Source: Virgisporangium aliadipatigenens
GTDB taxonomy: Bacteria; Actinomycetota; Actinomycetes; Mycobacteriales; Micromonosporaceae
Reading direction: 5' to 3'
Length of the DNA: 64,000 bases
Assembly (NCBI RefSeq): GCF_016863615.1
Contig: NZ_BOPF01000025.1
Location: 62,001 to 126,000, forward strand
Position 1 is the first letter of the stretch, and the number at the start of each line of letters is the position of its first letter. Shown piece by piece: positions 50,667 to 64,000 of the stretch. The translations under genes and the position numbers were made by a program. The notes under the pieces are model-generated. The model had not been told where the DNA came from and did no database searches. It saw only the letters and a program-made list of their open reading frames with translations.

Positions 50667-51662
50667 ATGGAGACCGTGAAGGCGGCGGAGAGCCGAGCCG
50701 GTGAGCGGGAGGCGCGGTTCCGGGATCCGCGGCTGATCCTGACCGCGCTGCTCGCGCTCGCCGTCGCGGCGCAGGAGCCGATCCGCGGGCTGCTCGGCGG
50801 TGCCGTGATCCAGGCGTGGCTGACCGTGTTCGTGGCGGTGGTGATCCAGGCGTTGCCGTTCCTCGTGATGGGTGTGCTGCTCTCCGCGATCATCGCGGTC
50901 TTCGTGCCGCCGTCGTTCTTCGCGCGGGCGTTGCCGAAGCGGCCGGCGCTGGCCGTTCCGGTGGCGGGGGCGGCCGGGGCGGTGCTGCCGGGCTGCGAGT
51001 GCGCGTCGGTGCCGGTCGCCGGTGCGCTCGTGCGGCGCGGGGTCACCCCGGCGGCGGCGCTGGCGTTCCTGCTGTCGGCGCCGGCCATCAACCCGATCGT
51101 GCTGACCGCGACGGCGGTCGCGTTCCCGCGCAACCCGGAGATGGTGGCGGCGCGGTTCGTGGCGAGCCTGTTCGTGGCGTGTGCGATGGGCTGGCTGTGG
51201 CAGCGGTGGGGGCGCGCGGACTGGCTGCGCCCGCCGGGCCGGCCGCACACCGACGGGCTCACGAAGGGCGCCGTCCTGTGGGGTTCGGTCCGCCACGATG
51301 TCATGCACGCCGGCGGTTTCCTGGTCGTCGGCGCCGCGGCCGCGGCCACGCTGAAGGCGTTCGTGCCGGCGCAGTGGCTCGACGCGGTGGCCGGCAATCC
51401 CGTGGTGTCGGTGCTGGCGCTGGCCGCCCTGGCCGTCGCGCTGTCGATCTGTTCCGAGGCGGACGCGTTCGTGGCGGCGGCGCTGTCCCAGTTCTCGTTG
51501 ACGGCGCGGCTGGCGTTCCTGGTGGTGGGGCCGATGGTGGACCTGAAGCTGTTCGCCATGCAGGCGGCCACGTTCGGGCGGGGGTTCGCGGTGCGGTTCG
51601 CACCGGCGACGTTCGCCGTGGCGGTGCTGGTGTCGACGGCGGTCGGGGCGGTGCTGCTGTGA
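50667..51662 (+). CDS. DUF318-type (ArsP_1-like) permease
   Basis: A 331-residue membrane protein with about eight helices. LPGCECASVPVAGALVRRGVTPAAALAFLLSAPAINP (CxC with conserved Pro) and a second ICSEADAFVAAAL motif mark the SO_0444/DUF318 permease family. It is coupled to the TIGR03943 gene that follows, which is the usual partner. In several bacteria such pairs lie with metal-uptake or Zur-controlled genes. Its TACCCT sequence near 50620 could be a -10 for a separate promoter; GGGAGG lies 10-15 bp before the ATG. Confidence 0.85.
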   Translation: METVKAAESRAGEREARFRDPRLILTALLALAVAAQEPIRGLLGGAVIQAWLTVFVAVVIQALPFLVMGVLLSAIIAVFVPPSFFARALPKRPALAVPVAGAAGAVLPGCECASVPVAGALVRRGVTPAAALAFLLSAPAINPIVLTATAVAFPRNPEMVAARFVASLFVACAMGWLWQRWGRADWLRPPGRPHTDGLTKGAVLWGSVRHDVMHAGGFLVVGAAAAATLKAFVPAQWLDAVAGNPVVSVLALAALAVALSICSEADAFVAAALSQFSLTARLAFLVVGPMVDLKLFAMQAATFGRGFAVRFAPATFAVAVLVSTAVGAVLL

Positions 51663-52369
51663 TCCGGCAGGCGCACGCGATCCTCATGCTGCTGCTCGGT
51701 GTGACGGTGCTGCGGACGGCGTTCACGGACGTGTACCTGCGCTACGTCAAGGAGGGGCTGCGGCCGCTGCTCATCGGCGTCGGCGTGGTCCTGATCGTGG
51801 CGGCCGCGGCGACGTTCTGGTACGAGTGGCGCCGACCCGCTCCCGAAAACCAGCCTCCCCCGCAAGAAGGGCATCGCGAGCCGCGCGTCTCGTGGCTGCT
51901 GGCGGTCCCCGTGCTGGCGCTGATCCTGGTGGCCCCGCCGGCGCTCGGCGCGTACACGGTCGACCGGGCCGGGAGCGCCATCCAGCAGCCCGCGGGCTTC
52001 CCGGCGCTGGCGGCCGGCGACCCGGTGCCGCTGACCGTGGGGGACTACGCGGCGCGGGCGGTCTACGACCACGGGCGTTCGCTTGCCGGGCGGACCGTCA
52101 AGGTGACCGGTTTCGTGACGCTGGGCAAGGGCGGCGAGCCGATGCTGGCCCGCCTGACGTTGAGCTGCTGCGCCGGTGACGCCCAGCCGATCAAGGTGGG
52201 GCTGGAGGGGAAGGTGCCGGCGGGGCTGCGCCCCAACGCGTGGCTGGAGGTCACCGGCGCGTTCAGCGCGCGCCGGACGGCGGATCCGATCAACCGGGCG
52301 CCGATCCCGTACCTCGCCGTGACCGAGGCGAAGCCGGTGCCTGAACCAAGGAATCCCTACGAAAGTTGA
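51659..52369 (+). CDS. TIGR03943-family membrane/exported protein
   Basis: A 236-residue protein with two N-terminal helices (AHAILMLLLGVTVL, LLIGVGVVLIVAAAATF), a third at LLAVPVLALILVAPPALG, and an external domain with VTGFVTLGKGGEPMLARLTLSCCAGDAQPI. The CC pair and the V.LARL.I.CC pattern are family hallmarks, and the cysteines are candidate metal ligands. It partners the DUF318 permease (GTGA overlap) and closes the zinc locus. Confidence 0.85.
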   Translation: MIRQAHAILMLLLGVTVLRTAFTDVYLRYVKEGLRPLLIGVGVVLIVAAAATFWYEWRRPAPENQPPPQEGHREPRVSWLLAVPVLALILVAPPALGAYTVDRAGSAIQQPAGFPALAAGDPVPLTVGDYAARAVYDHGRSLAGRTVKVTGFVTLGKGGEPMLARLTLSCCAGDAQPIKVGLEGKVPAGLRPNAWLEVTGAFSARRTADPINRAPIPYLAVTEAKPVPEPRNPYES

Positions 52370-61605: not shown

Positions 61606-63324
61606 GTGACGTTCTGTGGTGAGGTGCGGCTCGACGGGCGGCCCGCGTCGGCGGAACTGGCGGCCGCCATGCTCGCCGCCTCGGTGGTGCCTGCCGCCGA
61701 CCGGGCGGTGCACCGGGACGGCCCCGTCGCGATCGCCGGCGGGAATCCGGCGGTCGACGGCTGGATGCCCGCGCGTGCGACGCTTCGCGCCGAGGGGGCG
61801 GCCTGCCTCGACGGGCTGCTCGGCGACTGGGTCACCGCCGTGTGGGACCCGGTCGACGGGTGCCTCACGCTGGCCCGCGCGCCGCTGGGCACGCACCGGA
61901 TCCTCGTGCACCGCACGCCGGAGCGGATCCTGTTCGGCACCGAGATGGGGCAGCTGCGCGCCGCCGGCGTGCCCATGCACGTCGACGAGGTGGTGCTCGC
62001 GGAGGCGCTCGCGCGGGCGCCGACAACGATCGACGAGACGCTCGTGCGCGGCGTGCGCCGGCTGCCGGCCGGCGAGCTGCTGGAGATCCGGCCCGGCCCC
62101 GGAACGGTCGCGCAGCGGGCGTTCTCGTCGCTGCGCGGCATCGTGCCGCCGCTGCACGGCCCCGATCTCGACGCCGCCGCGCGCGCCGTGCGGGCCGCGC
62201 TGACGGCGGCGGTCGACGCGGCCGTTCCGGACGAGGGGGTCGGGGTGCAGCTCTCCGGCGGGGTCGACTCCAGCGCGGTGCTCGGCGTGGCCTGCCGGAT
62301 GCCGCACCGCTCGGTCCGGGTGCAGCCGATCAGCATGGTCTTTCCGGGGCGCGCGTGCGACGAGACGCCGTTCATCGAGGCGGTCGAACGCCACCTCGGC
62401 GTGCGTTCCCTGCGCCTGACACCCGAGCCGTACGACTGGGACCACTGGCGCGCATGGGCCGCCCGGGCGGTCGAGCTGCCGGTGCGCCCGAACGCCGCCA
62501 TGACGCACACGCTCCTGCGCACCGCCCGCGCCGAGGGGCTGCCGGTCATGCTCACCGGCGAGGGCGGCGACGACTGGTTCCACGGCAAGCGGTACCACTT
62601 CGCCGACCTGGCGCGCACCGGACGGTGGGCGACGCTGTGGCGGCAGAGCGGGACCGCCCGCACGCCGCGCGGGATGCGCACGCGGCTCGCCCTGATGTGG
62701 CACCACGGCGTGCGGCCCCGCCCCGGCGGCGCGCGGCCGACCGTCCCGTGGCTGCGCCGCGACCGCCTCGCCGGGTTGGGCCTCGACGAACGGTGGGCGC
62801 GCAGCGCGGCCGCCGACGCGTCGCGCTTCTGCTCCGCCGATCACCACGGGCGGTGGCGGCCGTCGATCCTGCGGGCGAGTGGGCCGCTGTTCGACGCGTT
62901 CCGCCTCTCCGTCGCCGCCACCGGCACCGGCTGGCGGCATCCGTTGCACGACCAGCGGGTGGTGCGCGCCGTGCTGGGCATCGCCGGCAGCACCCTGCAC
63001 GCGCCGGACCTCACCAAGCGGGTGCTGCGCGCGGCCGTCGCGGAGGTGCTGCCGCCGCCGGTGCGGGCCCGGCGGGACAAGGCCTTCTTCGACCTGGAGG
63101 TCGTGCTGGCGGTCGAGGCCGCGGGCGGTCCCGCGGTGCTGCGCGACGGGCCGCTGGTGCGCGACGGCTGGATCGACCCGGACGCGGTCGAACGCGCCTG
63201 GGGCCCGGTGTCCGCCGCCGCGCACGCCGGGCGCCGGCCGGCACCCGCCGACGATCACATCGTGCACCTGTGGGAACTGTTCGGCCTGCACACCTTCCTC
63301 GTATCCGGCGGAATCACCGGCTAG
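61606..63324 (+). CDS. Lasso-peptide macrolactam synthetase (asparagine-synthetase-like cyclase)
   Basis: A 572-residue asparagine-synthetase homologue. The synthetase domain has the PP-loop SGGVDSS (residues 217-223) and GEGGDDWFHGK. The N-terminal glutaminase domain is present as a fold but starts VTFCGEV, without Cys2, so it cannot hydrolyse glutamine like AsnB. Such proteins adenylate the ring Asp/Glu of lasso precursors and close the isopeptide bond. The next gene encodes a matching precursor. The GTG at 61606 is preferred over the upstream start at 61528 because of the promoter position and homology. Confidence 0.88.
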   Translation: MTFCGEVRLDGRPASAELAAAMLAASVVPAADRAVHRDGPVAIAGGNPAVDGWMPARATLRAEGAACLDGLLGDWVTAVWDPVDGCLTLARAPLGTHRILVHRTPERILFGTEMGQLRAAGVPMHVDEVVLAEALARAPTTIDETLVRGVRRLPAGELLEIRPGPGTVAQRAFSSLRGIVPPLHGPDLDAAARAVRAALTAAVDAAVPDEGVGVQLSGGVDSSAVLGVACRMPHRSVRVQPISMVFPGRACDETPFIEAVERHLGVRSLRLTPEPYDWDHWRAWAARAVELPVRPNAAMTHTLLRTARAEGLPVMLTGEGGDDWFHGKRYHFADLARTGRWATLWRQSGTARTPRGMRTRLALMWHHGVRPRPGGARPTVPWLRRDRLAGLGLDERWARSAAADASRFCSADHHGRWRPSILRASGPLFDAFRLSVAATGTGWRHPLHDQRVVRAVLGIAGSTLHAPDLTKRVLRAAVAEVLPPPVRARRDKAFFDLEVVLAVEAAGGPAVLRDGPLVRDGWIDPDAVERAWGPVSAAAHAGRRPAPADDHIVHLWELFGLHTFLVSGGITG

Positions 63325-63383
63325 GAACGCGGCGCCGTTATACGTTGAGATCATCTGATTCGTCGCTCTGGAGGAGATGGCCT

Positions 63384-63530
63384 GTGGGTGCCCGTTCGAC
63401 CGAGAAGAAGCCGAAGGACCGCAAGCCCTACACGCCGCCGCGCCTGGAGCGGTACGGCAATGTCGGGGTTCTCACGGCGGGCGGCGGCGCAGCCGGCACG
63501 GACTTCGGCTCCGAGATCTCCGCGCCGTAG
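63384..63530 (+). CDS. Lasso peptide precursor
   Basis: A 48-residue peptide from the GTG at 63384, behind GGAGGAGA. The leader (1-32) carries the lasso signature: Tyr16, Pro19, Leu21 and Gly25 in YTPPRLERYG, then Leu30-Thr31. Thr31 lies at position -2, the usual recognition residue. The core is GGGAAGTDFGSEISAP (33-48): Gly1 and Asp8 are right for an eight-residue macrolactam ring, leaving an eight-residue tail FGSEISAP. Glu12 could not form a standard ring. No homologue of the core is known to me. Confidence 0.85.
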   Translation: MGARSTEKKPKDRKPYTPPRLERYGNVGVLTAGGGAAGTDFGSEISAP

Positions 63531-63532
63531 GG

Positions 63533-64000
63533 GTGCCGCGGTACCGCTTCGGTGCCGTCACCGTCAGCGCCGACCTGCCGCTGCCCGGATACGCGGGCTA
63601 CCGCACGGCGGCGTCCGGTCGGTGCGAGGTGACGGTGCGCCGCGCCGGCCGGACCCCACCCGCCGCGACGCCGCTGTGCGACGTCCGCGCCCGGCGCGGC
63701 ACGCTGCGCGTCGGCGTCACGGCGGAGGGCCACCGGGTCGTCACGGTCGACGGGCTCGCCGCCTGCACGGTCGGCCCACGCTCCACAGTGGACTGGCACG
63801 TCGGCGACGGGCCGAACGCCGACGACACCGACCACCTGGTCTCCCTGATCGTGCCGTGGACCCTCGGCACGGCCCCGGACCTCGCCGTGCTGCACGCCGC
63901 TACGGTCGTCGGCCCGCGCGGCGCGGTGCTGCTCGCCGGCACCTCCGGCGCGGGCAAGTCGACGCTCGCGACCGCCCTGCACCGCCGGCTCGGCTGGCGG
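63533..64000 (+). CDS. HPr-kinase-like protein of the lasso cluster, partial (runs off right edge)
   Basis: The visible 156 residues begin 2 bp after the precursor stop. After a divergent N-terminal domain comes LHAATVVGPRGAVLLAGTSGAGKST, the P-loop of HPr kinase/phosphorylase. In lasso clusters such kinases modify the precursor; the best known phosphorylate a C-terminal serine. This precursor ends ISAP, so the target would be Ser14 of the core or an unexpected site, or the protein has another role. The acceptor-side residues lie beyond the window. Confidence 0.8.
   Translation, partial: MPRYRFGAVTVSADLPLPGYAGYRTAASGRCEVTVRRAGRTPPAATPLCDVRARRGTLRVGVTAEGHRVVTVDGLAACTVGPRSTVDWHVGDGPNADDTDHLVSLIVPWTLGTAPDLAVLHAATVVGPRGAVLLAGTSGAGKSTLATALHRRLGWR

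Follow-up and report, generated by a model that had tools for sequence, protein, structure and literature searches.

A lasso-type cyclase, precursor, and HPrK-like kinase module without adjoining B1 and B2 genes in Virgisporangium aliadipatigenens

The cyclase, precursor, and kinase genes

The window considered here, a stretch of 64,000 nucleotides from Virgisporangium aliadipatigenens, covers bases 62001-126000 of contig C25 (164,778 bases) in a 10.3-Mb genome of 112 contigs. Three genes lie head to tail at its right end (Table 1), encoding a lasso-type macrolactam cyclase (C), a precursor peptide (A), and an HPrK-like peptide kinase (K). The original prediction placed the three within 60 bp of each other, in agreement with gaps of 59 bp between cyclase and precursor and 2 bp between precursor and kinase, and its reading of a lasso-type cyclase, a Gly1/Asp8 precursor, and an HPr-kinase-like neighbor is supported both by profile matches and by counterparts in the Frankiaceae.

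Table 1. Features of the three-gene module, in window positions
Feature	Position	Strand	Details
Lasso-type macrolactam cyclase (C)	61606..63324	+	GTG start, stop 63324, 572 aa
Likely ribosome-binding site of precursor, GGAGGAG	63370..63376	+	7 bases 5' of GTG; predicted, read from sequence
Lasso precursor peptide (A)	63384..63530	+	GTG start, 48 aa; NF033521 and Frankiaceae counterparts
Precursor leader	63384-63479	+	32 aa
RRE-binding part of leader, YTPPRLERYG (YxxPxLxxxG)	63429..63458	+	Motif, predicted
Precursor core GGGAAGTDFGSEISAP	63480..63527	+	16 aa; Gly1, Asp8, Ser11, Ser14, C-terminal Pro
HPrK-like peptide kinase (K)	63533..64000, continuing to L002:4511 (510 bases beyond window)	+	325 aa

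One hallmark of lasso biosynthesis is an Asn-synthetase-like cyclase with an intact ATP-binding motif, and the C25 cyclase matches PF00733 (Asn_synthase) at 2.7e-32 with both its SGGVDSS and GEGGDD motifs kept. Its best NCBIfam model is that of the lasso cyclase, NF033535 (1.8e-35), where its 122.6 bits fall below the cut-off of 525; the cyclase of a complete lasso cluster in the same genome, on contig C12, is likewise under this cut-off, at 204.3 bits.

A second hallmark is a precursor that combines a YxxPxL leader and Thr at -2 with Gly1 and an Asp or Glu at positions 7-9 of the core. All of these are found in the C25 precursor if the leader is cut after Thr-Ala, as the Thr(-2) rule suggests, and Gly1 and Asp8 are predicted to form an eight-residue ring. 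Against the lasso leader model NF033521 (cut-off 19) the precursor scored 18.6 bits in one search and 18.5 bits in a search of the whole genome, or 19.1 with its neighbors (E 0.04). In 160 kb of contig C25, a loose regular expression for the leader has a single match, and 20 two-base-block shuffles average 0.3, so that the motif by itself is weak proof; the precursor is taken as real because its position between cyclase and kinase recurs in six other genomes.

The kinase matches TIGR04352 at 4.1e-12. A true HPr kinase/phosphorylase (HprK) was rejected as its identity because the curated cut-offs are not reached, either for Hpr_kinase_C (5.9e-5, 23.1 bits, cut-off 33.3) or for TIGR00679 (21.6 bits, cut-off 240). 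A structure model with a pLDDT of 87.6 has a fold that matches PEPCK (E 1e-7) and HprK/P (E 1e-5). The residues kept are His121, Gly136/139/141, Lys142, Ser143, and Asp160/161, which include those required in the peptide kinase BsfK (PMC10368454), and the catalytic residues H121, K142, D160, and D161 are invariant in 7/7 sequences, those of C25 and six Frankiaceae. The His-Lys-Asp-Asp motif that marks the HPrK-like kinases of the paeninodin type is thus present; the C-terminal Ser that serves as phosphosite in that type is absent from the core, which ends in SAP, as the original prediction had read it. Judged from these sequence features, the three genes appear to constitute a genuine lasso-type module that is incomplete in its locus, ordinary in its chemistry and unusual in its layout.

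Counterparts in the Frankiaceae and in known systems

The module belongs to a family of loci whose other members were mostly encountered in the Frankiaceae. A search for the C25 kinase in 394 genomes of the class scored 5 candidates per genome, a depth at which divergent copies could escape notice, and gave matches at E <= 0.001 in 40 of them. Strong matches besides the window's genome number six, all at E 7e-42 or better and all from the Frankiaceae (6/35 genomes of that family), the next match being at 4e-9. Among 397 genomes of the window's own taxonomic order, searched by profile at the same depth, the window's own is the only one in which the kinase was found. A database scan with the kinase alignment returned three named Frankiaceae records, and one with the C25 cyclase as single query gave no match. 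A search for the cyclase in 101 relatives gave matches at E <= 0.001 in 89. Leaving out the window's own, the top one among the matches listed reached 2.1e-19 with 34% identity over 267 residues, and no leader motif was seen beside those cyclases in the loci fetched.

The six Frankiaceae genomes (G195, G440, G206, G327, G153, and G292; they include Frankia sp. QA3, Frankia sp. AgB1.9, and Pseudofrankia asymbiotica) carry a homologous cyclase (46-53% identity to that of C25), a homologous kinase (47-52%), and a precursor. Loss of the precursor frame in relatives that keep the cyclase had been named as a sign against the lasso reading; a counterpart lies behind the cyclase in 6/6. The order cyclase-precursor-kinase, originally regarded as a departure from the usual arrangement, proves to be the family's own, present in 5/5 loci with all three genes on one contig and also in the C12 cluster. 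The Frankiaceae loci differ from C25 in that four of the six (G327, G153, G206, and G292) have B1 and B2 5' of the cyclase, and the remaining two are split over two loci. An ABC gene is directly upstream in G153, G206, G292, and G195 and farther away in G327; Pfam confirms an NTP_transf_5 gene in G206, and the remaining loci with B1 have one recognized by similarity.

If Thr is placed at -2, Gly1 and Asp8 are common to the cores of the window, G195, G440, and G206. Those of G327, G153, and G292 have Asp, Asp, and Asn as first residue, with Asp9, and match the standard lasso start less well. Five of the six Frankiaceae precursors end in Ser; that of G206 ends in Ser-Gly and that of the window in Ser-Ala-Pro. 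In the precursors of L086, L088, and L091 the start is Asp, Asp, or Asn, with Asp9, if the leader ends in Thr plus one residue. By eye, a TGCTACTCTC-type stretch, perhaps a promoter or a processing site, is visible between cyclase and precursor in L088, L089, L090, L091, and L161, and was not seen in the window's copy.

Two of the genomes provide possible examples of a divided pathway. In G195 (one contig, 8.8 Mb), a first locus at 5.62 Mb has the order ABC-C-A-K, with a spacing of 82 bp between ABC and C that leaves no space for B1 or B2, and a second locus at 6.14 Mb has the order NTase-B1-B2-C', where neither a kinase (by tblastn) nor a precursor (by leader motif) was found. A hisH-like gene (PF00117) lies 25 bp from the end of C', the second cyclase gene, and also adjoins the intact cluster of G206, so that the second locus looks like the ancestral site after loss of A and K. 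Both loci recur in G440, where C and A lie on contig C107, NTase-B1-B2-C' lies on C122, and K opens contig C23, the A-K junction coinciding with a contig break. Gene content in the two suggests reciprocal gene loss between the loci, a precedent that consists of two closely related genomes, one of them a draft. Between G195 and G440, 4 non-synonymous and 7 synonymous differences separate the B1 genes of the second locus (dN/dS 0.21), and 11 and 13 the B2 genes (0.34); the ratios for C and K of the first locus and for the NTase are 0.22, 0.30, and 0.44, values that, for these small numbers, are consistent with genes in use. Compared with G195, C' of G440 (L130:8488-10558) is interrupted by a 61-nt insertion that includes a long run of G, a sign of either decay or an assembly error. 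The B1/B2 pair of the second locus is not the sole possible partner of the first, because all of these Frankiaceae genomes carry another B1/B2 pair, in a lasso cluster of a different kind (three of them inspected).

Comparison with known systems yields partial likenesses. Paeninodin-type systems (PadeK, ThcoK, SyanK) and pseudomycoidin (PsmK, PsmN) combine a precursor, an Asn-synthetase-like cyclase, and an HPrK-like kinase as C25 does, and the Frankiaceae loci resemble them further in the presence of NTP_transf_5 and in the terminal Ser of most precursors. Unlike them, C25 has no B1, B2, or exporter, no C-terminal Ser, a YxxP rather than a WxxP leader, and the C-A-K order. In BsfA/BsfK of Bradymonas sediminis (PMC10368454), an HPrK-like kinase with the same His-Gly-Gly-Gly-Lys-Ser-Asp-Asp set phosphorylates away from the C-terminus; that cluster, however, includes B1/B2, its phosphorylated residue is Ser3, and its leader has Ile at -2, whereas in C25 the -2 residue is Thr and position 3 of the core is not Ser. 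The linear polyphosphorylated peptides (LPP; PMC13381572) share an HPrK kinase and a YxxP leader with C25 but lack a cyclase and rely on a signal-peptidase-like protease; C25 falls outside that class in that its locus has a macrolactam cyclase and no RRE.

Known relatives of the kinase act on the linear precursor, which makes phosphorylation ahead of cyclization likely for C25 also. Its core does not end in the customary Ser, and Ser14 or Ser11 is therefore proposed as the site. Phosphorylation at an internal serine, one of the possibilities put forward in the original prediction, would not be new, as it is already published for BsfK (PMC10368454) and LppK (PMC13381572), both of which act on Ser3.

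Surroundings of the module and other precursor systems of the genome

To the right of the kinase is an old yellow enzyme gene (PF00724), followed, on reading by eye, by short ORFs of envelope type and genes resembling katG, glyA, and aceA; to the left of the cyclase, on the opposite strand, is a flavin monooxygenase gene (PF01494). The B1, B2, and ABC exporter genes that had been expected past the right edge were not found there, and no B1, B2, or exporter/ABC gene adjoins the module on either side. Profiles made from Frankiaceae B1 and B2 proteins gave nothing convincing in C25 bases 2,000-161,999. A B1 (RRE) and a B2 (peptidase) in the cluster are a third hallmark of lasso loci, one that C25 does not have, but their absence past the edge does not refute the lasso reading, as four homologous loci carry both and the precursor frame is conserved. 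The whole genome has one B2 (PF13471), which is on C12 and belongs to the separate lasso cluster there, and two PqqD/B1 proteins, on C12 and C72. A frame at window positions 50705-52366 reached E 0.0078 (13.7 bits) when the C12 sequence was part of the B2 profile; with the family-only profile it gave E 0.46, it is not among the PF13471 matches, and it was dismissed as a chance match. An ORF in L133 that matches a PqqD regular expression was likewise set aside as chance, PF05402 having given no match.

The C12 cluster (L003:4146-10476) is complete, with two HPrK-like genes, a WxxP leader, and a precursor that has a C-terminal Ser; the same Thr-Ala as in C25 stands ahead of its likely core. A sulfotransferase gene in this cluster has an internal stop. 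The set on C72 (L036:11772-16001) consists of an ABC gene, an RRE (PqqD), an HPrK-like gene (so labeled from tblastn likeness, with no Pfam match), a precursor, and an NTP_transf_5 gene, and neither a cyclase nor a B2 was found in it. The C72 precursor has the leader YTQPALETLGSLQALTKG and a core without Asp or Glu near positions 7-9, and the set as a whole is reminiscent of the LPP peptides known from Bacillota. The C12 B1 scores 49.7 bits against the family B1 profile and the C72 B1 26.8.

Horizontal arrival is the simplest account of the C25 module. In one tree, its cyclase branches together with the G327 and G153 sequences (95/94), within the Frankiaceae set, on a long branch (0.57) and with distant outgroups. 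No close relative carrying the C25 genes and no plasmids were found. An empty insertion site could not be shown, because the flavin monooxygenase neighbor has many paralogues and the old yellow enzyme neighbor has an E <= 1e-80 match in neither congener.

Proposed maturation in trans and competing explanations

The account favored here, at close to an even chance, is that C25 carries a Frankiaceae-type HPrK-bearing lasso module, gained by horizontal transfer and pared down to its cyclase, precursor, and kinase genes, whose peptide is matured in trans by the B1 and B2 of C12. Observed directly in C25 are three intact frames, a conserved precursor, a common gene order, and no adjacent B1, B2, or ABC gene. 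In the proposed scheme, the kinase would phosphorylate Ser14 or Ser11 on the linear precursor; the YxxPxL motif of the leader would bind an RRE from another locus, with the C12 B1 as the likeliest candidate; the C12 B2, the sole B2 found in the genome, would cut after Thr-Ala; and the local cyclase would link Gly1 to Asp8, closing a (phospho)lasso. The calculated MH+ of the core less one water is 1375.61, or 1455.58 with a phosphate added. C12 is favored as partner because its B1 is nearer to the family B1 than is that of C72 and because the only B2 lies beside it. The two Frankiaceae genomes with A and C apart from B1/B2 may be a natural precedent for the split, and trans maturation of the C25 precursor is plausible from the sequences at hand. 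A point against the C12 partnership is the difference between its WxxP leader and the YxxP leader of C25, a difference that blocks cross-binding in Bacillota RREs; FusB1, an RRE of actinobacterial origin, binds foreign leaders and accepts both motifs (PMC13381572). Also counting against maturation in trans are the lack of an adjacent exporter and the loss of the C-terminal Ser, which decay would explain as well.

Decay is indeed the main rival, a doubtful but serious one, in which a module that arrived, or persisted, with no B1, B2, or exporter makes no product, its frames merely still open. Besides the missing genes and the lost last Ser, it draws on the confinement of the kinase to a single genome among 397 of the order and on the evidence that members of the group do decay, as in the disrupted C' of G440. 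Nevertheless, the three frames are full length and their catalytic residues conserved despite the long cyclase branch, which suggests long residence under selection, and the precursor retains its leader motif, Thr-Ala, Gly1, and Asp8. If the peptide is made, its leader might instead be bound by the RRE of C72, whose own YxxP leader is closer in motif to that of C25, but the lower B1 score of C72 and the lack of a B2 or cyclase in its cluster make this partner unlikely. More improbable still is a route that needs neither B1 nor B2, in which a host protease removes the leader, or nothing does, and the cyclase uses a trimmed peptide: pseudomycoidin is reported to be produced without leader and leader peptidase, yet an RRE-binding motif and Thr(-2) kept in the C25 leader would then be idle, and four of the six homologous loci keep B1/B2. 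Very little probability is given to a non-lasso RiPP that employs an Asn-synthetase homologue. The C25 cyclase is far under the curated lasso-cyclase cut-off, as this would predict, but so is that of the complete C12 cluster, homologous loci have B1 and B2, and the core fits the Gly1/Asp8 pattern.

Genome mining for lasso peptides usually requires B1 and B2 adjoining the cyclase, and modules like C25 would be discarded by such mining or labeled broken. The broader proposition, that lasso pathways can be split into a mobile C-A-K module without its own RRE or peptidase and a B1/B2 pair that matures its product in trans from another locus, is rated somewhat short of an even chance. If trans maturation is true, lasso pathways are undercounted, and the promiscuity of actinobacterial RREs described for FusB1 (PMC13381572) acquires a natural role. 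A literature search in which subscription journals were sparsely covered found no lasso peptide work on Pseudofrankia and no split lasso pathway as the subject of a title.

The C25 leader is an orphan third YxxP leader in a cell with two RREs, that of C12 with a WxxP partner and that of C72 with a YxxP partner, and so offers a clean test of RRE choice. A second precursor of the same kind as that of C72, YRPPMIEALGSLRKLTKGAGPGGMPIVMQTGGIPGM, lies on C7 (L092:9548-11374), where it adjoins an MbnB/TglH/ChrH-type oxidase gene (PF05114), placing a lasso-like leader beside a different modifying enzyme.
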